From Schoenoplectus triqueter (lineage: Eukaryota; Streptophyta; Magnoliopsida; Poales; Cyperaceae): a DNA stretch of 64,000 bases. The translations under genes were made by a program, and so were the position numbers. This document shows, in pieces, positions 7,179 to 30,885 of the stretch (the stretch's first letter is position 1; the number at the start of each line of letters is the position of its first letter). The notes under the pieces are model-generated. The model was not told where the DNA came from. It ran no database searches and saw only the letters and a program-made list of their open reading frames with translations. The stretch covers positions 372,001-436,000 of the forward strand of contig CAXKVV010000081.1 in assembly GCA_964058805.1 (NCBI GenBank), read 5' to 3'.

Positions 7179-7246
<68 letters not shown>

Positions 7247-7302
7247 GCATCTTCATGATAGAAATAATAATGGAAGATATTACATAATAGACTTTGTGCA
7301 TT
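6064..7302. other. AT-rich segment of the 5' LTR with (AAT)n microsatellite
   Basis: About 1.2 kb of strongly AT-rich, non-coding sequence with many ATAATA runs, an A17 tract near 7051 and a long (AAT)n repeat at about 7183-7240. No gene or clear motif is visible. The repeat length is the same in the 3' LTR. Confidence 0.8.
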
Positions 7303-7387
7303 TTAGAAATGAATAAACATGCTCACATAAGGAGTGTAGAGCCACATATGAATATTTGCACACATGACATGACATTTAAAGTGATTA

Positions 7388-7806: not shown

Positions 7807-7958
7807 GCTCGTTGAAGATTGACCAAAGCTACGACATCAGCATGGAGAGATATGTCGACTTTGAAGATGAAGAACATTACGATGTCCTAGCGAAGTGACA
7901 TCTTAATGACTCGGTGTCGTGAACAAGTAATTCATGACCATTTGAACTGGCAAGGCTG

Positions 7959-8545
7959 AACTCGTCCGTCGATGAGTTTGTCTCCTGGCTCATTTCCCGA
8001 GAATGTGAGATTGAATCGGTCTGTTGGTAGATTCATCCACAAAACAGTGAATGTGAACCGTTCTGTAGGTAGGTTCCTTCACTTACACATGCCTCAATGT
8101 TGAACTGGCCCAGCGCTTCAGGTTTGACATTGTGTGCAATTGTGTTTCCTAGGTTTATGAATCGGCTTAGTGCTACGAATTCATGATCTAGAAGATCGGT
8201 GAGAAGAAACACGTGGGCCATATCCACCCTTCTCCTGATTCACCAACCTCAAGATCAACCGGCTCAGCGCTTCGAGTTGTATTTTGTGTGATTGGTTGTT
8301 GACTAGTTAAGATTGAACCGGTCTGTTTGTAGGTTTATCTTCTAGATCAACAGAGGTAGAGTCGGTCTGTATGTAGACTCACCTCAAGCCTCCTATGAAG
8401 AGATTAACCTGGTCTGTTGGTAAGGTTACATCTCGAGGTGGCATGGACTGAACCGATCTGTTTGTAGGTTCGTCCCCATAGGATAAAACCGATCTGTTTG
8501 TAGGTTTTGTCTTCCCTAGATTGAACCGGTCTGTTTGTAGGTTCA
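7959..8545 (+). repeat. Nine-hairpin array with constant GGTCTGTTTGTA-type loop and varying stems (5' LTR)
   Basis: Hairpins with a conserved 10-15-base loop (consensus GGTCTGTTTGTA) occur at 7959-7978, 8012-8035, 8055-8076, 8314-8337, 8359-8380, 8405-8428, 8450-8471, 8485-8508 and 8522-8545. Stems are AACTC/GAGTT, TGAATC/GATTCA, GAACC/GGTTC, TGAACC/GGTTTA, GAGTC/GACTC, TAACC/GGTTA, GAACC/GGTTC, AAAACC/GGTTTT and TGAACC/GGTTCA. A second class with loop GGCYCAGCGCTTC lies between them (about 8103, 8158, 8256). The loop stays while both arms change together. The 3' LTR copy is at 29983-30569. Confidence 0.75.
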
Positions 8546-8866
8546 TCTTCCGTAGACCCCGTTTTATAAACTTAGACGACCACTTGACCATCTTTTAACT
8601 ATACTATTTGCTTCTCTCTTTCAAAGATCCAGAGGTGCCTCGAGGTTCGTAGCCCAGGGTAATTAACGGTGGGGGCTTGCGCCCACCGGAATCTACAAGA
8701 ACTCACAATCACTAAAAACCCCCTGAATATGCATCCAAATATCTCTAATCGGCAGAATCGGCCGACACCCATCAGATGCACGCTCGGGAGGGATCTCCGT
8801 GTCCTTCTTCCGCAACCCATCGCCCGGCGGCGGTGCGGAGCGCGCGAAAAAGGGTCGCACAGGATC

Positions 8867-8885
8867 TGGCACGCCCGGTGGGACC
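8867..8885 (+). other. Primer-binding site
   Basis: TGGCACGCCCGGTGGGACC begins five bases after the 5' LTR end. The TGG start pairs with a tRNA 3' CCA, as needed to prime minus-strand DNA synthesis. I cannot assign the tRNA species with confidence without a tRNA set. Confidence 0.7.
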
Positions 8886-8982
8886 TAGATTCTCCTCTTA
8901 TCTCTGAAAGAGAGGGTCAAATAGAATAGTTAAGAGATACAAGTGGTCTTCTATGCGCTAAAAATGACTAATGATTTTCAAG

Positions 8983-9015
8983 TATTTTTTTTTTTTTTTT
9001 TTTTTTGTTTTGCAG
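8983..9015 (+). other. Candidate splice acceptor in the retrotransposon leader
   Basis: A run of more than 20 T residues is followed by GTTTTGCAG at 9007-9015, ideal plant 3' splice-site sequence, just four bases before the ATG chosen for gag-pol. No single donor can be picked; candidates lie between the PBS and 8980 or within the LTR. Confidence 0.4.
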
Positions 9016-9018
9016 GAA

Positions 9019-12000
9019 ATGGCATACTTTGGAAACTTCAACCTCGCTCCCTACACTGTCATGCCTGCACAGAGTCCAGAGGGCAAGCTCTTTATGTTCT
9101 TTGGGACCATCCCGCAAGAACTTACTATCTACGGCCCAGCTCCAGTGGCCGCCTTCACTCCCGCGACCGTCCGGATCTCCATCCCGGACGAAGAGGAGGA
9201 CTCGATCACCCTGACTCCCAAGGGGATCTCAAACAACGTCATGGCCTCTCCTACTACCTCCCCAAAGAGGAGAAGGCGCCCGTCCAAGAGGACAGCCCCA
9301 AAGGCAGCAGCCCAAACTGCCCATAACTCTCAAGCGTCCAGGAAGAGGGCCCTGGATGCATACCAAAACCAGCTGGTGGCTAGGCCAGCTATCCCAGTCT
9401 CCAATAAATTCACGGCACTCCGTATAGTGGCTAAGAACTCAGCCACAGGCCAGCTCCGCCAGGCATGGGAGGTGCCTAAGCCCACACCTCGCCTAACTCA
9501 AAGGCCTCAGCGCCGCCAGGACAAGTCTCAAGCCCCTGCAGAAGCCATCTACAAGGCTCACAGGGCCCTCAAGCAGAGGAAGAGCGTGAGAAACGCTAGG
9601 TCGAGACAATACGTCTCCCGCCCCGATCACTCTCAAGGCATGGCTCAGCCGCAAGCCATTGCCTCCACTCCGAACATAAGGAAGTCTATATCAAAGGCAA
9701 CACCTAGCACCCAGCAGGTGTGGGTCCCGAAGGGTTCCCAGCCAATAAAGCCCCAATCTCAAGCCCAGCCCAGCAAGGCCGGCAGGTCCAACGCTCCATC
9801 CGAGAGCGTATTCAACCGCCTAGGTCAGAAGAGTGTATTCAGCCGATTAGGCTCAAGAATACCACTCAACAGTTTGAAAATAACCGCACCTGACCAAACG
9901 AAGAAGAAGAGAAGAACCGCTCGCTATGAAGAGCACTTCTCGGTCAACACTATCAGTATAAGCTACGATACTGATCCGGACACTGATGCTGAGGTGAATA
10001 TGACTCAAGATGACCAGTCCCCGCCTAATCAAGCTCACGTCACCAACACCAATAAAAATAATGGTAGAAAAGGGAGACCTCCCAAGAGAGTCAACCCCGA
10101 GGGCAACAGCAGGGAAGGGGAAGACCACAACGAAAACCCTGACTTCTTCGATAATGAAGATGACGTTGAAACACGTCCTGAAGTGCCAATCGATGAAATA
10201 GAAATATTAAAAGGCCACATCGAGGCACGGGACGAAGAGCTGATTAGGCAACGGGAGCTAATCGCTACCATGCTGAAGCAGAATGAAGAACTGATTAAGG
10301 CGGTCAAATCATTGCAAGAATCACAAGACGCCAATTTCAAAGCTGGTAGCTCCCGTCAAGAAGGGGTCCACAGTACCAAAAGCAATCATAAGGGAAAACA
10401 ACCTGTCGATTCTAAACCCCATCCACATAGAATAATAGAAGTGGAGGCTGAACCAACGGGAATATCCCGGAAAGAGATTCAAGCCATGATTGCCCAGCAA
10501 ATGCAAATAGCTGGAGGTGGATACGCTATCCCTCCCGTTAAAAACTGTGGACATCCATACCCTGCCATATACGACTTAGAAGAATATCCTAAAGGGTATG
10601 TGATCCCCCGCTTCAGGACCTTCTCCGGGGAAGGCAATAAAGACCTAAACCCCGAGCAACACTTGGCCCACTTTGTAGCCTCGTGCGGCAACACGGGCGG
10701 CAATGATGCACTGTTGTTGAGACAATTCCCTCAAAGCCTAGTGGGAACCGCCTTTCAATGGTACTATTCATTAGAAAACAACAGCATCAGGACCTGGGAC
10801 GAGATGGCGGACTCGTTCAGGGCACGATTTGTCATGGTATCTGACAAAATAAACATAGCCGATCTGGCGAGCACTAAACCCAAGAAAGGGGAGTCAATGA
10901 CAGATTTTATCAATAGATGGCGGAACCTCAGCATCAAATGCGACCGCACATTAACCGAAGATGAGGCCGTCAACCTAATCATGAAAAACATTGACGGGTG
11001 GATGGGCATGCTTCTTGGTGTGACAAAGGTCAACACATTCAAAGACTTGCTCAGATCGGTATCCAATATGGAAAGGATGTCACCACACACCGTGCCGAGC
11101 TTTATGAATAATAGGCCGCAACGAGGAGCCCGAGCCGAGACTAAAGTGGCATTCACCTCGCTAAAAGATAAGATGGTCGCCAACGCAGACACCCAAGGCA
11201 GCAGCAGTGGTACAAATGGCAACAATTACAACAAGGGACCCAGGCCCAACCCAGGAGGGAGTTCACGGAGTTTTGAATCCCTTAAACAAAAGAAATCTAA
11301 ACCGTACTCCTTCAGAAAAGATAAAGTTGCCCAAATCTTCAGAGGGGCACTGAAGAATGGCCTAACCCTGCCGGCCAGTAAACGCCCGGAAGATGCCGAT
11401 AAATCGGACGAACCCAACTTCTGCCCATACCACAGAATAATAGGGCACTCAATTGAAGATTGCTGGGTCTTCAAAGATTGGGTCGAGAAGGCGTATAAAA
11501 ATGGTGAAATTACTTTACCAAAAGGATTCTTGCAAAGCCCATCAGCCCATGAGCAGGCCAACACGATTTCTCATGAGGAAGAGAAAGTCCCGGGCCAGTC
11601 AAGCGAAGACCAAGAAGAACAATGGACTACGCACCTATCGAAGAAATCAATTAAAATGCTTAAAGCCCTTAAGAAAGAACCTGGCATGAAATGGAAGGAC
11701 GACATCACGCCAGTGGTCCCACCAAAACCCAGGGTATACTATAAGGTGGACCAGAGCCAAGATCAGGTTCTTAAGAAGGAAAAGAAGCATAGAAGCAGCA
11801 AGTCCAAAAAGAACAAGATTGAAGAGTACGAGCAGGGCAGTCCCGAGGCGATCACCCTTCAACACTTCATCTCCAAAGAAGACTGGGAGAAGCTAACCCT
11901 AGGTCAAAAGGAAGAAAATATAAATGAAGAAATAAATAAAGAAGAAAGCGAAGAGATCTGGGGTGCTTCGTGTAACATGGTATATTCTTCTCACGACGAA

Positions 12001-15000
12001 GATATGCCAACATTAGAGGAGATGTTCTTCCTAAATGATGAAGGAGAAGCAAGCACCTCTGGGACCAAGAACGAAGAGTGTAAAGCCGTGCTCCGGTCCG
12101 GGACTTACGTACCCGAGAGACAGGCTCCCAAGGATTCCGATAAGGGAAGAGATAAGGCCCTGAATAAAGGCAAAGAGGTCGAGAACCTAAGCAAGAACCC
12201 AGAAAAGACCCGGTCGACAGGCGAAGAATACAATGTGTTGGCACATCTGCGTAAGATCCCAGCGCTATTAAGCATATTTGACGCATTGATGATGTCACAA
12301 GACCTAAGGGAGGTATTAATCCAAGCCTTACAAGATCCCGAGAAGTACAAGTCATACTTCATAGAGCAAAATATGCAAGAAGCCCTATTCACCGCCAAGC
12401 GGGCCGCCTGTATAAATTTCACAGACGACGACCTCCTAATAGGCACCGTCGACCACAATCGCCCACTGTACATCACAGGAAATTGTGGAGGGCAAAAGAT
12501 TGGCCGCATCTTGGTCGACGCAGGGTCTTCGATCAATATCATGCCGCTTAAAACTCTAAAGACCATCACCTTAGATGTGAAGAATCTATCTGATGAAAAG
12601 GTGATTATTCATGGCTTCAATCAAAACTCCCAAAAGGCCCTGGGAGCTATAACTCTGAACCTGCAATGCGGAAGCCTAAGAGCGCCTACTAAATTCTATG
12701 TCATTGACGCTGAAACCTCTTATCGGGCGTTGCTGGGTCGCCCGTGGCTTCATAGTAATCAGGTCATACCCTCTACTCTGCACCAGTGCCTGAAATATAT
12801 TGAGAATGGTAAGCAAAAGAGAATTGACGGAGATGTCAAGCCATTCGGGGTGCATGAGATTAAATTCAATGACGCCCAGTACTTTCTGCCTAAATCCGCC
12901 GTGGCGCCGAGCCGGCCAATAACAAAAGCAGGTCAGAAACCCTTCAATAAAGGCCCTAAATTTGATACCTCATCTGGAGAAGAAGAAGAGGTTAAATTCA
13001 ATATTAAACCCCGAGGTGCTCAAGCCCAAAGACCCGGAAGAAAGTCGGGTGAAGAAGCAACCTTCCGCTTCAAACAGGTGGCTACATATAAGGCCCAAAT
13101 AAAGCCAAGCGAAATCAATTCAAGTGATTCTGAGGAGGAGGTCATTTTCAATTTTAAGCCTGCCAACACCCCTCAAATTCAGATCATAGAGGCAACTTCG
13201 GGAGAAGATTCCGAAGATTCCAGCAACTCGGGCGATACCACCTCGGGAGAAGAATCTGGCCACGATCGTCAACCCTGGGAAGAGGAGTCTGACGAAGAGA
13301 TCATCTATCACATCCTCAAAAAGCCATACAAAGGGCCCGAAACAGATAATGAAAGTGAGGAGTCATTTATGATCAACACGGGACCCGGTAGCGGAAGGGA
13401 TAACCCGGTTAGGCCGAGGCCTATAAATGAAGAACGCTCATGGCGGGAAAATTTCGAAGGGCGCGTCCGGAATGCAATCGACGAAATAAGGCACCAAGTT
13501 GAAAATAATAGAAGAGAGGTGTCTGAACAATGGGAAGTGATGCAGGATATTAAAGTGCAACACAATGAAATCATGATAATGATTGAAAACCTGCAAACCG
13601 CGATCTATAACTCCGAGCTACTCAAGGAGGTGACGAGCGAACCCCGTTCCGGGACCCCTGAAAGACAAACACCCGATAGCGGCAAGCGGGTAATTGTGAT
13701 AGTAGATGAATCAAAAGGGGAAGAAACGAGAGTTAAGCAGTCGACCGTCATGCAAACCCTCAAGGTCAAGAAGAGTAAACCATACTCTTTCCTGAAAAAT
13801 AAAACAGCTCGGATATTTGAGCAGGCCTTAAAGAACGGATTAACACTTCCCGTCTGTAAAAGACCCGCCGACATAGAAAGAGCCGGTGAAGGCGAATTCT
13901 GCCCTTATCATCGCATACTGGGCCATACAATTGAAGAATGCTGGGTATTCAAAGACCTTATAGAAGAAGGGCACAGAAATGGGACGATCCAACTCCCGAA
14001 GAGTTTTCAACAAGACCCAGCTCCGCATAACCTGAATAACAAAGGTAAAGGGGTGGCTTATACGATCTCGCACACTCCCGTACCTAGTACACCTAAGGTT
14101 GCGAGACGAAAGCCGATCAAAGAAATCTACCGCTCCAACTCAGTCATGAACATTGAGATAGAAGAAGAGATGGCAGCGCTAGAGATTACTGTGGTCCCCG
14201 AAAGGCATTTTAAAGACCTCATGCCAAGGGAAGTGAACCACATCCAAACCTTAAAGACCTTTGTTGTGCCGGCAAAGGTGGAACGCATCAAAGGGAAAAC
14301 TATCATCCACAAGGCCATAATTTTCTATCAGAGCGATTCAACCCAGTCTCTGAAGAACCCTGATCACAACACTTGGAAGAAGTGGGTGATAGAACAAGAA
14401 TCGGAGAATGCAACGAGCAATGACGCTGCATCTCATCCCTTTGGAAAGGAGCTATATAAATTGGCAAAAAGGGCGAAATGTTTGAGAGACATATCCAAGG
14501 CCGAGGCCAAGCGCTTTGATGAACTCTGGAATGGCGGCCAGAATAAAGTCCTGGGCCTGGATGGTAAAATAAAATACACCCGGGGATTAGGGTATGACTG
14601 CGATGACGCAGCATGTTTTGAAGGGTCTCTCAACAAGTACCGTATAGAAGAAAGCTGTTGCATGACTTCTGTTGAGATGCCAGATAATGAAACAGAAGAG
14701 GACAATACCCCGGTCCTGAAAAATGCTTTGAAACAGCTGGAAAAGGAACCTAACACGGTCGATGAGTTAGCTGAAATCAATCTGGGGACGGAAGAAGACC
14801 CACGACCAACTTTCATAAGCGCGTCATTGCCAGAAGAGGTGGCTGACAGGTTGAAGACATTCCTTAGAAGCTATATGGACTGCTTCGCTTGGAGTTATAA
14901 AGAGATGCCTGGATTAGATCCCAACGTGGCGGTCCATTACTTAAAAATCGATCCAACCTTCAAGCCGATTAAACAAGCGCCGAGACGAATGAGAATAGAG

Positions 15001-18000
15001 CTCGAAGAAAAGGTCGTGGAGGAGACAAAGAAACTCATCGACGCCGGTTTCATACGGGAAGAAGAGACGCCAGAATGGGTGGCTAGCATTGTCCCGGTTA
15101 AGAAGAAAAATGGGCAAATCCGCATTTGCGTAGATTTTCGGGACCTAAACAAGGCGTGCCCTAAGGATGATTTCCCGCTCCCAGTAACCGAAATCATAAT
15201 CGACCATACATCCTCCTATGAAGTCTTCTCCTTCATGGACGGTTACGCGGGCTATAATCAAATTAAAATGGCGCCAGAAGATGAGAGGCATACGGCATTC
15301 CGCACGCCGATTGGCATATATTGCTACAAAGTCATGCCGTTTGGGCTCAAAAATGCGGGAGCCACCTACCAACGGGCGATGACGAAAATATTCGACGATC
15401 TAATCCACAAGATAGTAGAGTGCTATGTGGATGACCTAGTCATCAAGGCCATGTCATATGAAGAACACCTCCAATACCTCGAGGTCGTTTTCAACCGCCT
15501 GAGAGAACATGCGCTCAAATTAAACCCGTTGAAATGCGCATTCATGGTATCGTCTGGTAAATTTCTGGGGTTTGTAGTACGCCACAGGGGAATCGAAATA
15601 GACCCGGGCAAGATCAAAGCAATAACTGAACTATCCCCGCCAAAGAATTTGAAACAATTGCGATCTTTGCAAGGGCAATTGGCGTACATTAGGCGGTTTA
15701 TAGCCAACCTATCGGGTAAAATCCAACCCTTCACCCGGCTAACTAAGAAGAATATCCCGTTTAAGTGGGATGGCGAGTGCCAGCGAGCCTTTGAAGAAAT
15801 CAAGGCATACCTACTCAACCCTCCAGTATTGGCGGCGCCCATACCCGGGAAGGAACTTATCCTGTATACGACCGCCCTAGATGGATCCTTGGGAGCCCTA
15901 TTGGCCCAAGAAAACCAGGATGGTAATCAAAATGCGCTGTATTACTTAAGTCGCATGATGGTAGGGGCAGAACATGGGTATTCACCGATCGAGAAGCATT
16001 GTTTAGCCCTAATCTTCGCGGTGAAGAAATTGAGGCACTACATGCTAGCCCATAAAATCATTTTAATATCCAAGGTGGACCCTCTCAAGTATCTGATGAC
16101 TCGGCCAATGCTGACGGGTAGGCTGGCCAAGTGGGCTATCATTCTCACTGAGTTCGACATCACTTATACACCGCAAAAGGCGATCAAGGGGCAGGCGCTA
16201 GCAGATTTCCTGGCTGCACACCCGATTCAAGATGACTCCCCATTAAAATGTGACTTTCCCGACGAGGAAACTCTACATGTTGAAGAAGGAGACCCTATAT
16301 GGGAGTTGTACTTTGATGGTGCTTCTTCAATCAAGCCGATCGCGGGCCCGGGAGTCCCAACTGTGCGAGCTGGCGCAGGACTAGTCTTCGTAACCCCGGA
16401 GGGCGGGATAATACGACATTCTCTGGCTTTAACCGAACCATGTACAAATAATGAAGCAGAGTATGAGGCACTCATCGCCGGACTAGAGCTATCACTGGAG
16501 CTGGGAATCAAGGCTGTACGCATCTTTGGGGACTCACAGTTGATTATAAATCAAATAATTGGCGAATACAAGGTCTTAAAGCCGGAACTAATACAATATC
16601 ACCGAAAGGCCATGGAATTAATGAAGAAAATCCCGTACGTGTCCATCGAGAAGGTCACGAGGGCTGTGAACGGTGAAGCAGATGCGTTGGCCAAACTCGC
16701 TAAAGAGCTGGGTGAACCAACAGAGCCGGAAATCCACATCATCGTCCGCAATAGAAGACCATTATCATTGTGTCAGACGACAGACAATGTGAATAATGAA
16801 AATACTGGGCTAGAAAAGATGGAATGCCAAGAGACAATGATAACTGAAGAAGACGATGATTGGAGACAACCGTTCATCGAATATTTCCGGCATGGCACCC
16901 TCCCCAAGGATAAAAGGATAGCTGATCAACTAAGAAAACGGGTACTACGGTATGCATATGTGGGCAATACGCTATACCGTAGGTCTTATGATCAGTTGTG
17001 GCTGAGATGTGTATCAGGGCCTGAAGCCGGGCAGGTTATGAAAGAAGTTCATTCTGGACTATGCGGAGCACATCAGTCTGGGCCAAAAATGAAGTTGAAG
17101 ATCAAGCGAATGGGGTATTATTGGCCCACGATGGTGGCTGATTGCGAAGAGCACGCGAAGAAATGCCGCATGTGCCAGATACATGGCCCTTTTATACATC
17201 AAGCGCCAAACCCATTGCACCCCACGGTAGCATCCTGGCCATTTAATATGTGGGGCACAGACATAGTGGGGCCCATAGACCCTCCGACGTCGAGAGGTCA
17301 CCGGTTTATCCTGGCGGCGACAGATTACTTTACAAAATGGGCTGAAGCCATCCCACTCAAAGAAGTTAAAGCGTCCGATGTGGTTAAGTTCTTCAAGACG
17401 CACATCCTCTACCGATTCGGCACACCACAACGGATAATATCCGATAACGGGACGGCCTTCAAGAGTTCCAAAGTCTATGCCCTGGCGGAGCAATTTAATA
17501 TTGATTGGAGATTCTCGTCCATTTATAATCCGAGAGCCAATGGCCTGGCCGAAGCCTTTAACAAAATCCTGATCAACATTATGAAAAAGACCGTGGACGG
17601 CAACCAACGAGACTGGGATAATCGTCTACAGGAGGCATTATGGGCTTATCGAACCACATACCGAACGCCTACGCAAGCTACCCCGTATTCTCTGGCTTTT
17701 GGGGTTGAAGCCATCCTCCCTCTTGAGGTGGAACTACCGTCATTGCGGGTGGCTATGCAAAACGATATGACCATGGATGAATGCCAACAACTCAGATTGG
17801 ACGAATTGGATACCATGGACGAGAAGAGACTGATAGCCCAGCAGAACCTTGAAATATATCAGGCAAAAATGGCAAGGGCATATGATAAAATGGCGCGAGT
17901 CAGGGCATTTCAACAAGGGGAGCTTGTTCTTGTCCTTAAGAGGCCGATTATTGGCCGGCACATCGGCCCAAAATTCTCTCCGAACTGGGAAGGGCCATAT

Positions 18001-18108
18001 GTAATTGAGAAGGTATACGGAGGCGGCGCATACCAACTCATAGACCATGAAGGTGAAAGGCCCATGCCACCGGTTAATGGGCGATATCTGAAGAAGTACT
18101 ACACCTAG
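9019..18108 (+). CDS. Tat-lineage gag-pol polyprotein (3,029 residues)
   Basis: One uninterrupted frame encodes the capsid and replication enzymes; residues here are numbered from 8971. I chose ATG 9019 because it follows a splice-acceptor-like CAG; an in-frame ATG at 8971 would add 16 mostly Phe residues. Order: basic N-terminal region (1-540); Gag core (about 541-700, ending in FQWYYSL and RARFV motifs); a CPYH...GH...C knuckle (about 790-830); protease with DAGSS (Asp near 1183); acidic SGEEEE repeats; a second knuckle (about 1625); reverse transcriptase (about 1990-2230, YVDD at 2152); a degenerate RNase H; an archaeal-type RNase H with all four acidic positions (FDGA near 2449, NEAEYEAL, GDSQL, EADALA); integrase with an HHCC finger and D-D-E core (GTDIVG, SDNGTAF, GLAEAF). 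The pol order defines Tat. It looks intact. Confidence 0.93.
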   Translation: MAYFGNFNLAPYTVMPAQSPEGKLFMFFGTIPQELTIYGPAPVAAFTPATVRISIPDEEEDSITLTPKGISNNVMASPTTSPKRRRRPSKRTAPKAAAQTAHNSQASRKRALDAYQNQLVARPAIPVSNKFTALRIVAKNSATGQLRQAWEVPKPTPRLTQRPQRRQDKSQAPAEAIYKAHRALKQRKSVRNARSRQYVSRPDHSQGMAQPQAIASTPNIRKSISKATPSTQQVWVPKGSQPIKPQSQAQPSKAGRSNAPSESVFNRLGQKSVFSRLGSRIPLNSLKITAPDQTKKKRRTARYEEHFSVNTISISYDTDPDTDAEVNMTQDDQSPPNQAHVTNTNKNNGRKGRPPKRVNPEGNSREGEDHNENPDFFDNEDDVETRPEVPIDEIEILKGHIEARDEELIRQRELIATMLKQNEELIKAVKSLQESQDANFKAGSSRQEGVHSTKSNHKGKQPVDSKPHPHRIIEVEAEPTGISRKEIQAMIAQQMQIAGGGYAIPPVKNCGHPYPAIYDLEEYPKGYVIPRFRTFSGEGNKDLNPEQHLAHFVASCGNTGGNDALLLRQFPQSLVGTAFQWYYSLENNSIRTWDEMADSFRARFVMVSDKINIADLASTKPKKGESMTDFINRWRNLSIKCDRTLTEDEAVNLIMKNIDGWMGMLLGVTKVNTFKDLLRSVSNMERMSPHTVPSFMNNRPQRGARAETKVAFTSLKDKMVANADTQGSSSGTNGNNYNKGPRPNPGGSSRSFESLKQKKSKPYSFRKDKVAQIFRGALKNGLTLPASKRPEDADKSDEPNFCPYHRIIGHSIEDCWVFKDWVEKAYKNGEITLPKGFLQSPSAHEQANTISHEEEKVPGQSSEDQEEQWTTHLSKKSIKMLKALKKEPGMKWKDDITPVVPPKPRVYYKVDQSQDQVLKKEKKHRSSKSKKNKIEEYEQGSPEAITLQHFISKEDWEKLTLGQKEENINEEINKEESEEIWGASCNMVYSSHDEDMPTLEEMFFLNDEGEASTSGTKNEECKAVLRSGTYVPERQAPKDSDKGRDKALNKGKEVENLSKNPEKTRSTGEEYNVLAHLRKIPALLSIFDALMMSQDLREVLIQALQDPEKYKSYFIEQNMQEALFTAKRAACINFTDDDLLIGTVDHNRPLYITGNCGGQKIGRILVDAGSSINIMPLKTLKTITLDVKNLSDEKVIIHGFNQNSQKALGAITLNLQCGSLRAPTKFYVIDAETSYRALLGRPWLHSNQVIPSTLHQCLKYIENGKQKRIDGDVKPFGVHEIKFNDAQYFLPKSAVAPSRPITKAGQKPFNKGPKFDTSSGEEEEVKFNIKPRGAQAQRPGRKSGEEATFRFKQVATYKAQIKPSEINSSDSEEEVIFNFKPANTPQIQIIEATSGEDSEDSSNSGDTTSGEESGHDRQPWEEESDEEIIYHILKKPYKGPETDNESEESFMINTGPGSGRDNPVRPRPINEERSWRENFEGRVRNAIDEIRHQVENNRREVSEQWEVMQDIKVQHNEIMIMIENLQTAIYNSELLKEVTSEPRSGTPERQTPDSGKRVIVIVDESKGEETRVKQSTVMQTLKVKKSKPYSFLKNKTARIFEQALKNGLTLPVCKRPADIERAGEGEFCPYHRILGHTIEECWVFKDLIEEGHRNGTIQLPKSFQQDPAPHNLNNKGKGVAYTISHTPVPSTPKVARRKPIKEIYRSNSVMNIEIEEEMAALEITVVPERHFKDLMPREVNHIQTLKTFVVPAKVERIKGKTIIHKAIIFYQSDSTQSLKNPDHNTWKKWVIEQESENATSNDAASHPFGKELYKLAKRAKCLRDISKAEAKRFDELWNGGQNKVLGLDGKIKYTRGLGYDCDDAACFEGSLNKYRIEESCCMTSVEMPDNETEEDNTPVLKNALKQLEKEPNTVDELAEINLGTEEDPRPTFISASLPEEVADRLKTFLRSYMDCFAWSYKEMPGLDPNVAVHYLKIDPTFKPIKQAPRRMRIELEEKVVEETKKLIDAGFIREEETPEWVASIVPVKKKNGQIRICVDFRDLNKACPKDDFPLPVTEIIIDHTSSYEVFSFMDGYAGYNQIKMAPEDERHTAFRTPIGIYCYKVMPFGLKNAGATYQRAMTKIFDDLIHKIVECYVDDLVIKAMSYEEHLQYLEVVFNRLREHALKLNPLKCAFMVSSGKFLGFVVRHRGIEIDPGKIKAITELSPPKNLKQLRSLQGQLAYIRRFIANLSGKIQPFTRLTKKNIPFKWDGECQRAFEEIKAYLLNPPVLAAPIPGKELILYTTALDGSLGALLAQENQDGNQNALYYLSRMMVGAEHGYSPIEKHCLALIFAVKKLRHYMLAHKIILISKVDPLKYLMTRPMLTGRLAKWAIILTEFDITYTPQKAIKGQALADFLAAHPIQDDSPLKCDFPDEETLHVEEGDPIWELYFDGASSIKPIAGPGVPTVRAGAGLVFVTPEGGIIRHSLALTEPCTNNEAEYEALIAGLELSLELGIKAVRIFGDSQLIINQIIGEYKVLKPELIQYHRKAMELMKKIPYVSIEKVTRAVNGEADALAKLAKELGEPTEPEIHIIVRNRRPLSLCQTTDNVNNENTGLEKMECQETMITEEDDDWRQPFIEYFRHGTLPKDKRIADQLRKRVLRYAYVGNTLYRRSYDQLWLRCVSGPEAGQVMKEVHSGLCGAHQSGPKMKLKIKRMGYYWPTMVADCEEHAKKCRMCQIHGPFIHQAPNPLHPTVASWPFNMWGTDIVGPIDPPTSRGHRFILAATDYFTKWAEAIPLKEVKASDVVKFFKTHILYRFGTPQRIISDNGTAFKSSKVYALAEQFNIDWRFSSIYNPRANGLAEAFNKILINIMKKTVDGNQRDWDNRLQEALWAYRTTYRTPTQATPYSLAFGVEAILPLEVELPSLRVAMQNDMTMDECQQLRLDELDTMDEKRLIAQQNLEIYQAKMARAYDKMARVRAFQQGELVLVLKRPIIGRHIGPKFSPNWEGPYVIEKVYGGGAYQLIDHEGERPMPPVNGRYLKKYYT

Positions 18109-19832: not shown

Positions 19833-22800
19833 CTATGGGCCCAAAAAGCGGGACTCCAACTCTAATAGCACAGTACTAATAGTCTCTAAATGAGTATGGA
19901 GGGAGTGCCTATCCTCCTCCGAAGCTGCCTCGAAGTCCAAGAACTGAGCGAAGGCACTATCCCGGACGCTCGTGTGAATCTGCAGCTCTGGGAGACGTCC
20001 CGCTAGATGTCGGGAGAAGCCCTCCACCGATGATCTGTGGTCCTCTAGCTCCTGCACGAGCAGTCGAGCGGGCCCACCACTAACTCCCATGGAGCGGAGA
20101 GTGGCACAAGAAGAGAGCCGCTGAAGGTAGTGGAGTCGAGTGGCCTCCAAATGCCTGCGTAGCTCATGAATCTCCAACTCGTGCTGATAAACGAGAGAGC
20201 TCGCATCCTGGTAAGCCCTGAGCAGCTCCTCACACCTCCTAGAAATGAAAGTGCTCTCGAGACGAGGTGCAATGAGTAGAGCTGGCGCGATGGTATCCCG
20301 CATCAGCCCATACCAGTCAAAAGAGAAACCACTGGGCAGAGAGTCCAAGATCTCGAAATCTAGCGGATAGCCTCCGAAGAAGGTATCCCGGAGTGCATCC
20401 GCCAACGCGGCCAAGGCGAGCTGCACATCCCTCGATGAAACATCTGCAAGTAAAATAAATGGGTTAGACGAATTGTTATAACCAAAGAGGAAATAGAAGG
20501 AAGAAAAGATCTAACCTATCGCCTCGTCGCCTGAGACAGGCGGGACTGAGTTAGGAATAGGGATGTCGGTCGCCTCAGGAGGACCTGCAGGTGTACCAGA
20601 CCCGGCTACAAAATAAAATGAAAAAAACATAAACACATGGAAAAATAAAATACGGGCGAATAATAAAAGAAATATAAGGTACCGGAAGAAGCATGAGGCT
20701 CGGCGAGACCCTCGCTAACCGGAACCTCTGTCTCTGGGCTGTGGAATAGCTGCTCCACCAGCCAACTCTCATCCAACTCTGAGTCATAATCGACTGCAAC
20801 CCGCTCAGTCGAGACTCTGCTATCTGTGGCCATGAGAGGCTGCCCATCGGGAGATGAAGAAGCATGAGATGGCCCTCCCTCAATCAATAATGGCTCGTCG
20901 CCTGCGGGCACGACATCCAATGGACTCCCCTGCTCTAAAGAAGCCTCCTCTGGTCGTGCAAGAGTGAGCACTGGCCCCAAAACCACATCGAACGAGTCAC
21001 CATCCCCGGTAGGCACCAATAAAATCGACGGTGAAGCAGGACCGTCATGAAAGAAAGGCTCCGAGCGGTGTGGAGATGCCATGTCATCGGCCTCAGGGTC
21101 TGTAAAATATACATGTAAGAATGAAAATACTAGTGCATGCTGGCAACTAGGTATTAAATGAAGCACACGAACCTGCGACGGCAAGGTCGGTGCAAAACCC
21201 TGGAATAGCAGTGCTCACAGGCGCCGATAAATCTGCTATGATATCGTCTCGGGTAGCCTCCACAGGAGATGTCCCATGAGCTGAAAAATAAACCCTAATC
21301 AGAGATGTAAATGAAGTGCGCCCGAATAAGGATAGGCGAGTCAGTAAAGAAAATCACCCGGAGTGGGAGAAGGGAGAGAAGATGGATAAGACGGCTGAGA
21401 GGCGCCGTCTCGATCTCTCCCCATGGTAGCTGGAGCCGGTGGCTCGACGTGTGGCTGAGAATGAACGCCAACTACTCGTGAACGAGGGACCGAGAACCCG
21501 GGCTCCGCGTGATCATACTCATAAGCCAGCTCTGAATCAAAGAAGAATTGGTCGAAATGAGATGAGGCTTATCGAAAAGAAATAACCTAAAGGGATGATG
21601 AAGCATACCTGTGAGAATGGTCCTAACGGGAGCATGAGAAAACCGGCTGTCTAAACCCTGAAAGTCGACAGGCTCTACGGCAATGGCCGGAAAAGGGCTG
21701 CGATCACGCGAAACGGTGCCATCTAATAGAGGCTGGCCATCTCGCGGACATGTACTCCGGACGACCACCGGAGGGGTATATGACTGATAAGAGCGAATGG
21801 TCTCATAATACCACTGCTGATAACGCCTCGTGAAGGTGGAAGTCCTAGAGGTGGATACCATCTGATAGCGAGTGCCTGTGCCTAGTCGGAAGAGGTGAGT
21901 GTAACACCATCCGATACCCTCCAAATCAGCCGCCAATGATATAGGGCGGAGAAGAGGCGCTGGAATATCCTGATCCAAGCCGAACTGATGTGCACATCTA
22001 TGTGGCGAATAGGGCTCGATGAACATATAATCGCCCAATCTGAGAGGAAGAAAGCCCTGACGAATACTGATCAGGTGCTCCAAATCAATAGGCCTGGCTC
22101 GAATGCTAGAAGAGTCAGAAGAGGGAACTCTGCTGTCAATCACCATCCTGTCAGCAACCCTAGATGTCCCACGAGCCACTGATCTGTCTCGAGAGAAGCG
22201 CAAATGGTCTCGGCTCCTGAAGAATCTGTACCGGGCAGCCTCCGGAGTCAATGAAGCTGGCTGCACCCCAGCCAAGTCACTCAGTAAGGGTAGACGATCT
22301 CGTAGCGTGACCGCCATGCCGGGATCATATGAACCAGACCAATGTAAATGGAGCCATCCGCTAATCAGATGCCACGGGATCAGCTCCTGGCACTGTGAAG
22401 GACTGCGAGATGAAGTCAGACCGCGGAGGCACCTGTAAATGTTGGCCAGTACAGGCACGGCCAAAGAAATCCTGTCGCCACGCGCGATCAGGCTCGCCAT
22501 AATGAACACCGAAGGCCGAATGGTGTATGCGGGGGAGCTAGGTAATAAGAAATAGCAAATCCACCAAGAGATGAAGGCGGTCAGATAAGTCTCCCGATCC
22601 ACGTCATGTGAACACAGGGTATCCTGAGATGGGATAGGGCCGTCACGATGAATCTCGAGCCGACCTGTACCAAATGGATCTCTGGTGGAAGCCAGACCCG
22701 TAGGGCGAGTGTGGACCCGATCGGTGAAATAGGCGATCCAATGTCTGAACGGAACTCCGGGATGCCCCCTCCGTAGATGATGGTAAATCTCGTAAATCCT

Positions 22801-23487
22801 ATGCAAAGAAGGCGGGAATCGAGTGAAGTCCCCCGAGTCAGCGGGCGAGACCATGAACTCGTCATAGAAATTGCCGAAGATCGGCAGCCCGGTCAACTGC
22901 TGTATCTCTAGGAGGGTCGGAGTCAGCTCCCGATCATCGATGAACAGAGTATTAGTGGAATAGTTCCACCTCTCACAAAAGGCCCGTAGCCAGGGTGTGT
23001 CGATATGATAATGAAACATCGACAAGAAAACCGAGTCATATATCCCGGCTCGCCTGAGCAGAGTCCCCTCCCGCATGAGCACGTATCGGGTCCACTCTAG
23101 CTGATATCCATGGCACTCTAAGGGAGTGATGAAAGGGGCAGTGGTCCATCTATAAGCCTCCCCGTCTATAATCTCCTTGCCCAGGAGATGTGTCAAAGGA
23201 GCCGAAGAAGCGACGCCTAAAGGCTGAAGGGGCATGATGTCATGAGGCTGATCATCCCTGAAGAATAAACCGCCGCCTCGCGGGTAGACAGGAGTCGCTC
23301 GGATGGCTGAGACGAGAGGAGTCCAATCGCTAGGATCCTCATAAAAAGAATGATAATGACCCAAGGGGCGACGCGGAATGGCGTCATGAGAAAGAACTAC
23401 AATACCCGAAGAAGAGAAGACGTCATGAGAAATGAAGTGATGAATAATAAGGAATAATGCACCAAGACAAGCCTTTCGAGCGTTCAA
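19833..23487 (-). CDS. Antisense six-exon gene, plant-mobile-domain-like protein with coiled-coil tail
   Basis: Encoded opposite to gag-pol. Proposed exons (minus strand): 23487-21609, 21531-21358, 21280-21173, 21099-20683, 20605-20516, 20443-19833. The five introns (77, 77, 73, 77, 72 nt) have GT-AG ends and are all phase 1; the joined 3,279 nt stay open to the stop at 19833. The frame begins at a TTG; the first in-frame ATG is 23235 (1,008 residues), so the true start is unsettled and an upstream exon is possible. Exon 1 resembles the plant mobile domain: RAGIYDSVFLSMF, FCERWNYSTNTLF, ELTPTLLEIQQLTGLPI, then TIRPSVFIMASLIARGDR. Exons 2-5 encode a Pro/Ser/acidic linker; exon 6 is Leu/Arg/Glu-rich and looks coiled-coil. 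PMD proteins (MAIN/MAIL1 type) act in nuclear gene silencing, and PMD copies are known in plant TEs. The role here is unknown. Confidence 0.75.
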
Positions 23488-23511
23488 GACTCGTCTTGGT
23501 GGGTGGCTCTT
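23461..23511 (+). other. Inverted repeat and presumed polypurine-tract region before the 3' LTR
   Basis: ACCAAGAC (23461-23468) and GTCTTGGT (23493-23500) form an 8-bp inverted repeat ending 11 bases before the 3' LTR. The G-rich GGTGGGTGG just after is the only purine-biased tract available as plus-strand primer, and it is weak compared with usual polypurine tracts. The segment also covers the presumed 5' end of the antisense gene. Confidence 0.45.
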
Positions 23512-26500
23512 TGTTTACCCTTGAAAAGTTTCAAGGATGAATGGATGAATAAATGAAATAAATTGATGATAAAATCATAAGAAAGGGGAAGAAGAGAGAG
23601 AGCAGTGGAAAGGTGGCCCACTGATCAGGAGAGGTCGCTGCCTAACCCCGGAACAAATCCATTAGTCCCACAGCGGAATGTTGGGCATGAAGTGAAGAGT
23701 ATAAATACCCCGCTATTCTCTATCCACTCAGCATGAGTGACACCCAAGAAGATCGAGGGAGAGAGGAGACCTCTTGGGTGTCACCATGTGATTATATCTT
23801 TTCTGACAAGTGGGACCCACATGGCAGTCCCTTATGAGCAGCTCCAATGACATGGACCTAGCCTATTTTGCTAAGAGAGCTAACCAACCCGGAACAGAGG
23901 TTAAGCATTAATCCCACAATGGAATAATATGGTGAAAGACGAGGATATAAATACTCCACCACCTCCTACTCATTCGAGGTGGCTGACCCTCGGGAGATTT
24001 AGGAGAGAGAAAATCTCCTGATGGGTCAGCCATTTGATTATATTTTTTTCTGACAAGTGGGACTCACCTGGCAGCCCCTTGTAGATGAACTTAATAGCAT
24101 AGCCTATCTGATGAGTCATCCATATGACCATTTTCACTGACAGGTGGACCCCACACCTCAGTGACCTATTGAAGGAGTCAGAATTGAACCCTAGAAATCT
24201 GCCTTTGAAGCTAACCCTAGAAAGGAGCTGAAGCAGTATAATCCCTATGCTACATGAAATGATGTCAATGCCAAGCTAGCATTTTGATGCAACTAGTCAT
24301 GAGAAATTCCAAATGTGATTTTGCTTTCAAGGCTGACCTGGTGCCAAAGCTGCGAGCAACCACCTAACAATGCTTTGATTTGTGTCAATTACTGATAAGT
24401 AGTCAGTTCTTTGACCAAGTCACCCTCATGTTAAGGGATTGAAAGTCAATTTCACAAGACTGATCAGGTGCCAAAGCTGGGAGCAACCACCTGATCAAGT
24501 CTAGATTTGTATTAATTGCTGATAAGTAGTCAGCATTTGATCAAATCAAGCCCTAATGGATATCAATATAAGTCTAATTGGTATTTAGTTAGGGTGGTTT
24601 CTGCAAGAGGGAGATAATTGGCAGAGACACAGAGCTACAATTGAGATCAGGGATTAATTCATAAGGAATATTAGGGTTTTATGGACAAAAGAATTTTTAA
24701 TCCAGAGAAGGAGGGGTAAAAATGGAATTAAAAATTACAGGGATGATCATCATGAATTTAGGGATTTTTGGTGAAATTTTCATAATTCTTGGATAAGTGG
24801 AGCTATCAGAATAAATTCAAGGAAAATAAAGGCAGATTAAATGGATTAATCAGAGGCTGAGATTTGATCAAGGCAGATCTGGGTGCAAGTTGGGGGTGAT
24901 AGCAGCTCTGGGTACAAACTGGGTGCAAGAAACACAGAGGGAATAAAATAAGCGAAGAGAGAGGGTGTGCCACGTGGCAGCCTCTCATTGGGCCATGTCA
25001 GCAAGTGGGCCCCACCCAGGTATGAGTCACTGACAGGTGGGCCCCACCTTAGTGCCACGTGGCAGACAGCCAGTGGGCCACCTCACCACCCTAGTGCCAC
25101 ATGGCACCACACCAGAGGTCCACTTAACCCAACCCTGTGCCACATGGCACAGCCAGAGGAGGCCACCTCACTACCCAGTGCCACATGGCTCTACCTTACA
25201 GGCCCACCTCATCTCTGCACTTACCACATGGCAGCACACAGAGTGAGCCACCTCAGCAGCTAGATGCCACATGGCACTTCTCCATTGGTCCACCTCAGCT
25301 ATGTGGGCCCCACCATGCCATAAGATGACTGACAAGTGGGCCCCACCTTAGTGCCACGTGCCATGCATTAACTGGTGCCATGTCATCGTATAGTATACAC
25401 AGGGGTTACAGGTGGCTCCATTGGATTGGTACAAGTCAGCAGATGACAACACACATGGCATTACTAGGCAGAGCCACATCACCCACCATTTACAGATCAT
25501 TAGTGTTAAGGATTTGTTTAACAAGCAATCAACCAATCAGGAAGAGCCACCTCAGCATATTAGCATTAATCAGTTGCTAACCTCACAGGTTTAAACGCTT
25601 AAACCTTACAGATGGGACCCAGTAGTCAGGTGGATAAGGCTAGGATCACAAGCTATAGATATAAACCGAGTCTATTCATCCTATCTATCCAACTCAGCGC
25701 AAATGAATTTAAACAAAGGAAGAAAAGGAAGGTGAACCTGGTGCATGAGCTCTAGACCACTGCCCCCTTTCTCTCCTGCGTGTTGGTGTGTGTGTGCCGT
25801 GTGCATCCAAGCCGGCGGAAGAACCTTCTCCCTCCCTCTTCTTCTCGCCATTGCCCGATTCAAGCACATCTCGCGTTTTTCGCTTCCCCTGGCGTCTCAC
25901 CATGACTGTAGGTGATCAAGGAGATGATGATGATCAGGCGATGATAAGACAAAGGCTTTGATGAATTAATTAGTAATATGAGGTGAATTGAGAGTCGAAT
26001 TAAGTGATACCTGAAAACAAGCCGAAGAAGAATGGATGAATTGACACTACGGAGATAAAATTGCGTGACAAGATGGACCCTTTAGGGCAAGGCGACGCCA
26101 ATGGAGGTGAATTGATGAGGCAATTTGAAGTGTGAGATGCTAATTGATCAAAAGAAGAAAATGAGGCAGAAAAGGGATTAGTGAAATTGGAAATGGTGAA
26201 TGAATAAAAAAGCAGTCAGAGTAATCATGGAGTGTTTAAATAGTAAGTAATGACCTTGGGCCCGCTTGTCAGTTGAGTTATGTGAGTAATTGAGAGTGTG
26301 GAGTCAAACCAAATCGCGGCACAGTCAAAAATCCTAACAGAAACGGTTATACGGCTGCAGCAACAAACACAAACTTATCTGGACCGTTAATTGAATTAGA
26401 ATGGAGGGTGAAGATGAACCCAAGGTGGCAATCCGAGTGAAAGGCAATTAACCAATCACAATTGTGATTAATCAGCCTAATTAGCCTATATAAACCAAAA

Positions 26501-29202
26501 TTGGCAGCAACAGTAAAAGGAGAGGGAGATACATACAGACATTCATATACATCCATTAGTAGAGCAATTGAGAGAGGATATACACTAGCAGTCGCCAATT
26601 ACAAAGAAGAAGAGAGATTACAAAGAAATCAATTGATTTAGATTACTATTCAGATTGAGAGGTTAGTTGTTCATGCATTCAATTGGCAATTCTTTTAATC
26701 TCTGTAAATGAATTTAGAACTTTGATATAGCTAGTTAAACAGTCAATTGATTTCTTTTCTGTTCTTGCTACTTTTCTTTAAGAATTTGTTCTATCTTTTT
26801 ACATTTTCTTTTCTGCATTTTCTTGTTCTTTCTTTAATAACCCTAATTAATAGTAATTGACTGAATCCAGTGAGCCACTGGCCCAATCACAAAGTGATTG
26901 GTGAGCCTTTAGGCCTGGATCAGTCAAGAGAGCATCAAGAAATCATAATTCAATTTCTATTACACTGTTTCTTTGTGATTTTTCATTTTCTATTCAATCT
27001 CCTTGCTTGTATTTGCATAACAGATGGGAGATGATGATCTTCTGTCTTCTAGTCATGTCAATTGTATAATCTCAGTTGGATGCATCAGTTAATTCTTATA
27101 ATTGTTCTGATTCTGACACAAATCAATAGGTTATTGAAGTTGTAGGGATAATTCATCATCATCTTAGTGAGCCACTGGCCCCAATAACACTTGGGTGAGC
27201 CTTTAGGCCTAAGAAAGATGATTTGAATACAATAATACGATAATTGTCAAGAATGAACTGGTATTGATCGATTCCGTGTACAATCTGTAAGCATCATGCC
27301 TTAAACACTTCATAACACATTAGGCCACTGGCCCTAGCTATGCCTAGGCGTGCCTTTAGGCCTGAGGAGTGCTAATTGGATGAATAAGGGCCATGAATTG
27401 AGTCAATTAAGATCGGTACCAACCGGTACCATGCATTGCCGTGTGGTGAGTTGCTTCAGCACCTTCAAGAACGAAAGGGAAGCCTCCTGCCCATCCTATA
27501 TCGCATATTCATGTTTAGACGATGCTTCTCGACCTTGTAATCATCAAGAACTTTGATTAATTCTGTCGAATTTGATGAAGAAAGCATTTCGGTACCGACT
27601 TTAACTGACATACTCGTCGGTGCTATCATACGAAGCCTGTCACCGCATGGATTTCCAATCAAAGACTACAGAGAGGCTCACTGAAGTGAGGCGACGCTAG
27701 GGCATAGGTCTGATCGGAGAAGGAGAGCTCCGGTCATCGGGAACGCCACCTAGCACGGATCTTGACACATCGGGAGGTCAGGGACTGAGAAGAGACCGTC
27801 TGCACGATTCTTGAAGTGTCCGTCAATCTTGAAGAATATTTGATGAACGGGATTTGGCAAGAGTTCGAAAATTTAAAACGAGAAAAGATCTGGGCCTTAT
27901 ACATATTAAACACGCATCTTAATTAAATCAAGCGGCCCAGATATGTTTAAACGTTTAAATAACAACTCTGTGCTAATCTGGGCCGTAGATCCATTAAACA
28001 CTCATCTCAAACTAATCTGGCGGCCCAAGTGAAGAAGAGAGTTAGAAAGATGCGCACCAATCTCGGAGTAGATCTGGCGGCCCAGATTAAGCCCATTAAT
28101 TAAATAATAACAGAATAGTAATAATATGAAATAAATAAATGATTTGAAAATGCTATTGAACTCCAAATTGACTCAAATTTGTTTCTAAAATTTTCTTATT
28201 TTTCATACTATTTTTCTGTACAATAATATTCCAGTTTTAAAAATATAATCATGATAAAACAATTTACAAGCAAAATACATTACATATATTGATATAATTG
28301 ACCTAGATTTGACTTGCCATTTTAAATACTATAAAAATTCCAAAAATACAAATAAAAATCATAAATAATAACTAGATATATTCTAGTGATTTTTCAAGTG
28401 ATTTTCCATTAAATAATGATGATAGTAATATGCTATAATAAACAATGAGATTAGCTATATTCCTTGATAAATAAAAAAATATGAATAATAATGAATATTA
28501 TGTTGATATTTTCTGTAAAAGAATAATAAAAATAAATAGCACAAAAATACAAAAATATCATGGTAATAAATAGTAAAATGCATTTTCTTTATAATAAAGA
28601 ATGATAATATAGTTTTATAATATGAATTGTATTTCTTTTGTTATTTCTATACAAATATACAAAAATATACTTTTGATGAATAAAATGTAATAAAAATAAT
28701 AGTTTTAATAAAAACATAATGAATTTCATCTCTTATGACTAATAATAAAAATCTTATACTTTTCTATAGATAATAAATAGAGATAATAAAAATAGATATA
28801 ATGAATAGTATAATAAATAGAATAGAATATTAGTAATGATTTCTTTTAGCTATTATAGATATTAAAAGAAATAATAATAAAATAATAATAATAATAAAAA
28901 TGATAATAGTAAAATAGTATAGCTAACCATCTTTTGATTTTGTAAATAATTCTTATCCTATTACTTTAGCTATTATAAGCATTTAAAAAAAATATATAAA
29001 TAAAACATAACCATCTTACTTTCTATTATTTTTGTAAGTGATTGTCTACAAAATAATAAGGTTTAGAAATAATAAAAAAAAAAAATAAAAATTCTATTAT
29101 TTTAGCCATTATAAAATCCCAAAAATATTAATAGCTACCCCTTTTCTTATTATTTATTTTTTTTTTGTAAATAATTTTCTACATAGATAAATAGAGTTTA
29201 AA

Positions 29203-29270
<68 letters not shown>

Positions 29271-30885
29271 GCATCTTCATGATAGAAATAATAATGGAAG
29301 ATATTACATAATAGACTTTGTGCATTTTAGAAATGAATAAACATGCTCACATAAGGAGTGTAGAGCCACATATGAATATTTGCACACATGACATGACATT
29401 TAAAGTGATTAGTCAAGACAAGAACATCTTGACGTAGGATGATTAAGGATTTAATAGCAATATGAGAAGATATGTCGAGACAAGAACATCTTGACATTTG
29501 ATGAATAATAATAAGATACGTCGAGACAGGAACATCTTGACGTGAGATGAATAAAGCTTTGATAGCAGCATGAAGAAGTATGTCGAGACAGGAACATCTT
29601 GACACCTGATGAAGAATAACCAGAGCTACGACACTAACATGAAGATATACGTCGACTCTGAAGAAGAAGAACATTACGATGTCCTAGAGAGGTGACATCT
29701 TAATGACTCGCTGCCATGAGCAAGTAACTCATGATTGAATACGCTCACACAAGGGGTGTAGGGCTACATAGTAATTTTGCACAAATAATGCAATACGTAG
29801 GATGATTAGTCGAGACAAGAACATCTCGACGCTCGTTGAAGATTGACCAAAGCTACGACATCAGCATGGAGAGATATGTCGACTTTGAAGATGAAGAACA
29901 TTACGATGTCCTAGCGAAGTGACATCTTAATGACTCGGTGTCGTGAACAAGTAATTCATGACCATTTGAACTGGCAAGGCTGAACTCGTCCGTCGATGAG
30001 TTTGTCTCCTGGCTCATTTCCCGAGAATGTGAGATTGAATCGGTCTGTTGGTAGATTCATCCACAAAACAGTGAATGTGAACCGTTCTGTAGGTAGGTTC
30101 CTTCACTTACACATGCCTCAATGTTGAACTGGCCCAGCGCTTCAGGTTTGACATTGTGTGCAATTGTGTTTCCTAGGTTTATGAATCGGCTTAGTGCTAC
30201 GAATTCATGATCTAGAAGATCGGTGAGAAGAAACACGTGGGCCATATCCACCCTTCTCCTGATTCACCAACCTCAAGATCAACCGGCTCAGCGCTTCGAG
30301 TTGTATTTTGTGTGATTGGTTGTTGACTAGTTAAGATTGAACCGGTCTGTTTGTAGGTTTATCTTCTAGATCAACAGAGGTAGAGTCGGTCTGTATGTAG
30401 ACTCACCTCAAGCCTCCTATGAAGAGATTAACCTGGTCTGTTGGTAAGGTTACATCTCGAGGTGGCATGGACTGAACCGATCTGTTTGTAGGTTCGTCCC
30501 CATAGGATAAAACCGATCTGTTTGTAGGTTTTGTCTTCCCTAGATTGAACCGGTCTGTTTGTAGGTTCATCTTCCGTAGACCCCGTTTTATAAACTTAGA
30601 CGACCACTTGACCATCTTTTAACTATACTATTTGCTTCTCTCTTTCAAAGATCCAGAGGTGCCTCGAGGTTCGTAGCCCAGGGTAATTAACGGTGGGGGC
30701 TTGCGCCCACCGGAATCTACAAGAACTCACAATCACTAAAAACCCCCTGAATATGCATCCAAATATCTCTAATCGGCAGAATCGGCCGACACCCATCAGA
30801 TGCACGCTCGGGAGGGATCTCCGTGTCCTTCTTCCGCAACCCATCGCCCGGCGGCGGTGCGGAGCGCGCGAAAAAGGGTCGCACA
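23512..30885 (+). repeat. 3' long terminal repeat, 7,374 bp
   Basis: Same length and nearly the same sequence as the 5' LTR, offset 22,024. It contains the same features: TATA/hairpin modules at 23700-23784 and 23946-24031, G-box palindrome array 24968-25363, palindrome plus TATATAAA 26454-26494, composite stem-loops 26861-27371, GTCRAGA hairpins 29412-29830 and the nine-hairpin array 29983-30569. It ends CGCACA at 30885, followed by the second GTTTC. On the minus strand this LTR is also the only sequence upstream of the antisense gene and may carry its promoter. Confidence 0.97.

Follow-up and report, generated by a model that had tools for sequence, protein, structure and literature searches.

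The 64,000-nt stretch of Schoenoplectus triqueter DNA analysed here (contig CAXKVV010000081.1, positions 372,001 to 436,000; hereafter the window, with coordinates counted from its first base) contains a long terminal repeat (LTR) retrotransposon of the Tat/Ogre type that probably carries, antisense to its gag-pol frame, an accessory protein gene with at least five short introns. On the minus strand between pol and the 3' LTR, six exons and five GT-AG introns form one joined frame that runs to a stop at 19833. The exon structure, the conserved splice sites, the constraint on the joined frame and the retention of the introns in the genomic copies examined can all be read from the sequence, and from these features the six-exon structure of the antisense gene is almost certainly real. 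Its spliced expression is predicted with nearly as much confidence.

Exon-intron structure and conservation across copies

In the direction of the predicted transcript, exon 1 (21609..23396, 5' border tentative) encodes a plant mobile domain (PMD) and is followed by intron 1 (21532..21608, 77 nt, CAG/GTATGC..TTCAG), exon 2 (21358..21531, 174 nt), intron 2 (21281..21357, 77 nt), exon 3 (21173..21280, 108 nt), intron 3 (21100..21172, 73 nt), exon 4 (20683..21099, 417 nt), intron 4 (20606..20682, 77 nt; 73-77 nt across copies), exon 5 (20516..20605, 90 nt), intron 5 (20444..20515, 72 nt) and exon 6 (19833..20443, 611 nt including the stop), all on the minus strand. Exon 4 encodes an acidic linker (21% D/E, 3% K/R) and exon 6 a conserved C-terminal part. 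Because every intron is in phase 1, the inner exons are all multiples of three. The introns are T-rich (0.42-0.61) and have a GC content of 0.23-0.39, compared with 0.53-0.62 in the exons. The longest spliceable open frame 3' of exon 1 measures 1,434 nt; all 20 locally shuffled sequences stayed within 216-708 nt, and on the opposite strand of the same region the longest is 198 nt. The splice rules of this test were fixed after the gene had been seen. The six exons and the five GT-AG introns of 72-77 nt given in the original prediction are thus borne out by the sequence and by the comparison of copies described below. The predicted frame of 3,279 nt from 23487 is correct in length (3,306 nt with the stop codon when counted from the preceding stop at 23514) and fails as a gene start, since the codon at 23487 is TTG and not ATG. 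The proposal that the introns are copies of one another was rejected, as the ten pairs gave no clear similarity (lowest shuffle counts 8 and 11 of 200). An AATAAA lies about 225 nt past the stop in many copies; the stop anchor failed or slipped in several of them, and the motif was therefore not counted.

Of the 64 further copies listed for the family, 40 were aligned with that in the window. These were picked from the best matches to exon 1, and exons 2-6 played no part in the choice; intactness of exon 1 was therefore selected for and the values for this exon are biased. Some of the 41 may be near-duplicates, as L045 and L046 have a stop in common. Donor GT and acceptor AG are present in all 41 copies for introns 1, 2, 4 and 5, and each in 40 of 41 for intron 3. 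Indels in the exons comprise an in-frame 24-nt insertion in exon 4 (five copies) and a 4-nt deletion in exon 6 (one copy), and those in the introns measure 1, 2, 3, 4, 6 and 8 nt. In 32 of the 41 copies the joined frame reads uninterrupted to one shared stop. The ratio of nonsynonymous to synonymous changes (omega), obtained from a parsimony count of changes on the copy tree and not from a codon model, is 0.19, 0.43, 0.50, 0.34, 0.57 and 0.18 for exons 1 to 6; in each exon none of 500 null replicates, in which the same changes were redistributed randomly over sites of that exon with the same base and cytosine context, was as low. With the branches split, and with a null that preserves the base only and not the cytosine context, omega is 0.10 on internal and 0.21 on terminal branches for exon 1 from codon 40, 0.28 and 0.47 for exons 2-5, and 0.11 and 0.21 for exon 6. 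Eight stops were gained on the tree where about 86 were expected (summed over the branch-split groups). An excess of third-position changes is found in exons 1, 2, 4 and 6 (p 0.001 or less) and in no intron (lowest p 0.087). Judged from these patterns, all six exons are under purifying selection in the joined frame. Conserved splice sites and frame together with a dN/dS below 1 had been named as the check on the gene, and the outcome is favourable, with splice sites retained in 40-41 of 41 copies and omega at 0.18-0.57.

Nearly all relatives from other sequences whose homology extends to an exon border are consistent with that border. A search with exon 1, in which the best 8,000 candidates by shared words were scored, returned at least 25 proteins that are 28-95% identical; 18 are from JGI contigs, and all have PF10536. 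The end of exon 1 is covered by 11 of P0002-P0018, and in every one of them the next codon is Gly after Ala, Thr or Ser (P0017 being less certain), which is what a phase-1 AG/GT donor would encode. This donor-like codon is retained even in P0017 and P0018, at 37-38% identity. Local alignments to the spliced protein mostly stop at residues 626-643, the border of exon 1 being at 635, with P0013 extending to 655. Exon 6 has 43 relatives (58-98% identical), some of which, such as P0056 and P0058, read on through intron 5. A search with spliced exons 3-6 gave 29 relatives, 51-72% identical, that cover exon 4, intron 4 and exon 5. Their codon at the intron 4 donor is Gly in 25 and Ser or Cys in three, all compatible with GT (17 of the 29 were scored by a pattern script and 12 by eye); because the search filtered by length, it favoured read-through of intron 4 in P0069-P0097, which therefore informs on the borders, not on whether the intron is coding. 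Relatives also flank introns 3-5. No clearly spliced form was seen among the relatives, and P0068, in which exon 4 is joined to the middle of exon 6, was rejected as one because it looks like a deletion. Five of P0020-P0025 carry the names Rhododendron or Cucumis. A scan of viral contigs with the PMD alignment gave no relative (eight pattern matches, none confirmed).

Start of the gene and the 3' LTR

The first ATG in frame with the TTG at 23487 is codon 94 (about 23235). The codons ahead of it, 41-93, are constrained and homologous to relatives, and both constraint and homology begin near 23396; the true start therefore probably lies upstream of this ATG and of the coordinates first given (19833..23487). 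On internal branches, codons 1-37 show no clear constraint (omega 0.79, with 101 of 300 replicates reaching a value as low), and their omega of 0.46 on terminal branches (none of 300 replicates as low) is not explicable by an intron alone. An acceptor-like GTATTGTAG at 23405-23397 on the minus strand, in phase 1, lies where the constraint changes, and its AG is present in 40 of 40 copies. The alignment of P0018 has an Ala-Val pair at this candidate acceptor, as a CAG/T acceptor could encode; P0002 and P0004 give no clear fit to it. From the shift in constraint and homology, a further first exon upstream of 23396 is likely.

Such an exon has about an even chance of lying inside the 3' LTR, where a tentative candidate is found at 23647..23662 on the minus strand (ATG at 23662, 16 nt, phase 1). 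Its ATG is conserved in 40 of 40 copies, its donor GT in 37 of 40 and the acceptor AG in 40 of 40; the tentative 5' intron that it implies (23397..23646, minus strand) would cross the boundary between the LTR and the internal region. This candidate is one of 67 combinations of ATG, donor and acceptor with an open frame, several of which score equally. A TATA-like TATTTATA (23700..23707, minus strand), a putative antisense promoter by resemblance, lies 45 nt upstream of the conserved candidate ATG, and the other 40 aligned copies all share seven of its eight bases, while at least 90% share the eighth. Reading by eye also showed a pair of resembling units at 23700-23953 in the 3' LTR (not listed by TRF), spaced by about 250 nt and both containing TATTTATA and a GTGGGA..TAATG stretch; they look as if the putative antisense promoter had been duplicated. 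A scan for bacterial-type promoters does not apply to a plant and was set aside.

The host element and retention of the introns

The retrotransposon occupies 1488-30885 (29,398 bp) and has a 5-bp target site duplication, GTTTC, on either side (1483-1487 and 30886-30890). Its 5' LTR (1488..8861, plus strand, 7,374 bp) differs from the 3' LTR (23512..30885, plus strand), the possible site of the antisense promoter, by three mismatches, so that this copy is very young. The primer-binding site (8867..8884, plus strand) is complementary to the 3' end of tRNA-Arg(TCT), and two tRNA-Arg(TCT) genes whose 3' ends match it are present in the same genome. A single frame at 8968..18108 on the plus strand, with a likely ATG at 9019, encodes gag, protease, reverse transcriptase (RT), RNase H, an extra RNase H and integrase; the Pfam matches follow the order RVT_1, RT_RNaseH, RVT_3, Integrase_H2C2 and rve, which places the extra RNase H between RNase H and integrase. 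This is the order described for angiosperm Tat elements (PMC6317226), and tRNA-Arg is described as the primer of Ogre (PMC9289625). The assignment of the element to Tat in the original prediction is upheld by this domain order together with the primer site. The single open frame 8968-18108 lacks the intron that usually separates gag-protease from RT in Ogre, and the element is therefore named Ogre-type and not Ogre proper. The family is abundant, with at least 65 exon 1 matches scored as the best of 279 candidates and at least 51 pol matches scored as the best of 803 candidate sites.

The introns of the antisense gene were claimed to be kept in genomic copies, and this was confirmed at junctions 1/2 and 5/6. 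Spliced forms of these junctions occur nowhere in the genome with up to two mismatches allowed, against 42 exact intron-containing forms at junction 1/2 and 57 at junction 5/6. It is proposed that the sense genomic RNA holds the introns as reverse complements, which would remain unspliced and so survive reverse transcription. Introns antisense to the genomic RNA would therefore be copied rather than removed, in keeping with the absence of spliced forms. The counts at these junctions suggest that an intron-containing gene can persist in a mobile element despite copying through RNA if it lies antisense.

Further features were noted in the element and beyond it. By eye, a T-rich run at 8986-9021 ends in TTTTGCAG, abuts the gag ATG at 9019 and resembles a 3' splice site; from this resemblance the 5' leader of the sense RNA may contain an intron ahead of that ATG. 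The gag-pol frame also contains two similar stretches of the form KKSKPYSF...GLTLP...FCPYHR..GH, likewise seen by eye, the second nearer to RT. Between pol and the antisense gene, a 168-nt repeat is present in two copies (88%) at 18842-19250. On the right flank of the element, the frame 30773-31780 (plus strand) has no Pfam match and presumably resembles a hAT-type transposase. A TPR-repeat frame identified by Pfam (34518-35375, plus strand) and a frame without Pfam match that recalls leucine-rich repeats (42955-43500, plus strand) lie further on, and the region 34518-43500 may represent a TONSOKU-like gene of the host. At 54004-55296 on the minus strand lies a degraded reverse transcriptase of the Copia type, with an RVT_2 match at 54592-55296.

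Predicted product, alternative readings and related systems

The original prediction held that exon 1 resembles the plant mobile domain and proposed a hidden Markov model search as a check; PF10536 is matched at 94.7 bits, above the curated cut-off of 34.9 (E 8.2e-27). Neither the exon 1, 4 and 6 frames (threshold E 1) nor the translation of spliced exons 3-6 (threshold E 10) matches Transposase_28 (PF04195). Exon 1 had no hit among PDB sequences at E up to 1, and an Rfam search of the whole window at gathering scores returned nothing. We propose that antisense transcription begins within the 3' LTR or close to it and that the host machinery splices the resulting RNA, to which the LTR may contribute a first exon. 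Its translation would give a protein of about 1,070 residues consisting of the plant mobile domain, the acidic linker and the conserved C-terminal part. MAIN and MAIL1, host proteins with a plant mobile domain, act in transposable element silencing (PMC5418596, PMC7156037, PMC9899485). The window protein has in common with them the domain, as matched by the profile; MAIN and MAIL1 are host genes, whereas the element's gene contains additional exons that have no accepted Pfam match. By analogy with MAIN and MAIL1, the product might be a nuclear regulator that acts on host silencing or on transcription of the element, which is the most likely role and a tentative assignment. An anti-silencing role in particular is, on the same analogy, somewhat doubtful. 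The full scenario of a seven-exon antisense gene driven by a 3' LTR promoter and encoding a PMD protein that interferes with MAIN/MAIL1 silencing in an arms race with host PMD proteins, must be regarded as rather unlikely.

Several observations weigh against a spliced, functional antisense gene. The frame is broken in nine of the 41 copies, eight by one or two inner stops and one by the 4-nt deletion. Introns 2, 3 and 5 are as conserved as the exons (mean pairwise difference 0.053, 0.040 and 0.037, compared with 0.042-0.094 in the exons, of which exon 3 evolves fastest), and the third-position test is not significant for exons 3 and 5 alone (p 0.05 and 0.13). Several donors, GTGATT, GTTCGT and GTTAGA, are far from the usual consensus, and one of the 29 relatives covering intron 4 (P0095) has an Asp at the donor codon, which is incompatible with GT. 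Several alternative combinations for the start codon are available. As for function, a Pfam scan of spliced exons 3-6 at E up to 10 was empty, the exon 6 frame alone reaches DUF4600 at E 0.2, far below the cut-off, and an AlphaFold2 model from 11 sequences, with a mean pLDDT of 37.8, is too poor to inform on function.

It could be argued that exons 1, 4 and 6 are two or three separate unspliced antisense genes with the introns as spacers, since three long stop-to-stop antisense frames do exist and antisense open reading frames (ORFs) are counted singly in the literature (PMC11963269, PMC7264820). Yet for exons 2, 3 and 5 no long antisense frame matches, over the length of these exons, the joined frame in which they are constrained, and the nearly invariant splice dinucleotides, the agreement of all intron phases and the ending of the relatives' homology to the spliced protein mostly at exon borders leave this explanation highly improbable. 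Capture of a host gene as DNA would fit the retained introns, and the same domain does occur in the host genes MAIN and MAIL1 (PMC5418596), which might suggest a recently acquired passenger without function for the element. Several findings speak against such a recent capture, to which we give very little credence: the internal branches of the copy tree bear the mark of purifying selection, the distant P0017 and P0018 still have the donor-like Gly codon at the end of exon 1, and Gypsy-encoded PMD clades are reported to be spread over angiosperms (PMC5418596).

Two further alternatives accept a real, spliced gene and differ in what its product does. The product may serve reverse transcription, nuclear import or the choice of integration site instead of silencing, a quite plausible option that falls short of an even chance: the domain is the only datum that points to silencing, and the antisense protein of Grande gene23 is reported to be nuclear (cited via PMC7264820), yet the frames scanned (exon 2 not among them) contain no domain for any of these roles. 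Alternatively, the gene may restrain the element itself through control of copy number or latency, as HBZ opposes Tax in human T-cell leukemia virus type 1 (HTLV-1). The layout is possibly HBZ-like, being antisense and spliced with a start perhaps in the 3' LTR (PMC1459196), and antisense RNA might also feed silencing (PMC7264820). The abundance of the family (803 candidate pol sites, 51 scored) and the youth of the copy, with its three LTR mismatches, speak against self-restraint, neither decisively, and we consider it improbable. The reading preferred here is an accessory gene of the element, with nuclear regulation as its leading role.

Parts of this arrangement have precedents. PMD-bearing extra ORFs are reported in 57% of Ogre elements (PMC6317226), which resemble the present element in their Tat lineage, the extra RNase H before integrase, a PMD outside gag-pol and the tRNA-Arg primer. 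They differ in that the gene described here is antisense with six exons and gag-pol is one frame, whereas Ogre typically has the gag-protease/RT intron; for the Ogre extra ORFs, the part of PMC6317226 drawn on here mentions no intron. Antisense extra ORFs in Tat elements were already known, as the original prediction stated (PMC7264820, PMC11963269). Those of Retand, Grande (gene23) and RIRE2 likewise lie between pol and the 3' LTR, are presumed regulators and, in Grande, are reported to have their own antisense transcription (PMC11963269, PMC7264820); they carry Transposase_28 or other domains and not a PMD, and the word "intron" does not appear in the main text of either article on antisense extra ORFs. 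Sense introns inside plant LTR elements exist in Ogre and EVADE, where they yield subgenomic sense RNAs (PMC12786077); those of the window are antisense and thus reversed in the genomic RNA. HBZ of HTLV-1 is a proven spliced antisense gene, transcribed from the 3' LTR and mostly translated from a first exon in the LTR; it has a single 1.4-1.5 kb intron, and its protein is unrelated (PMC1459196). The present gene is likewise antisense, is predicted to be spliced and may also start in the 3' LTR. A multi-intron antisense gene in LTR elements was not found in the titles and abstracts of the matches listed, among which Steinbauerova et al. 2011 (Genetica) was not covered. The PMD in Ogre, the antisense extra ORFs and the sense introns are already known, and the multi-intron antisense gene may be new.

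These results suggest that intron loss is not inevitable for genes borne by retroelements, as orientation alone can preserve a multi-intron gene over numerous cycles of copying. Surveys have treated antisense extra ORFs one at a time (PMC11963269, PMC7264820), so that whole genes may have been overlooked or fragmented, and a 2020 review calls for the examination of antisense and spliced transcripts (PMC7264820). A plant mobile domain carried by an element also bears on whether host PMDs derive from retrotransposons or vice versa (PMC5418596).

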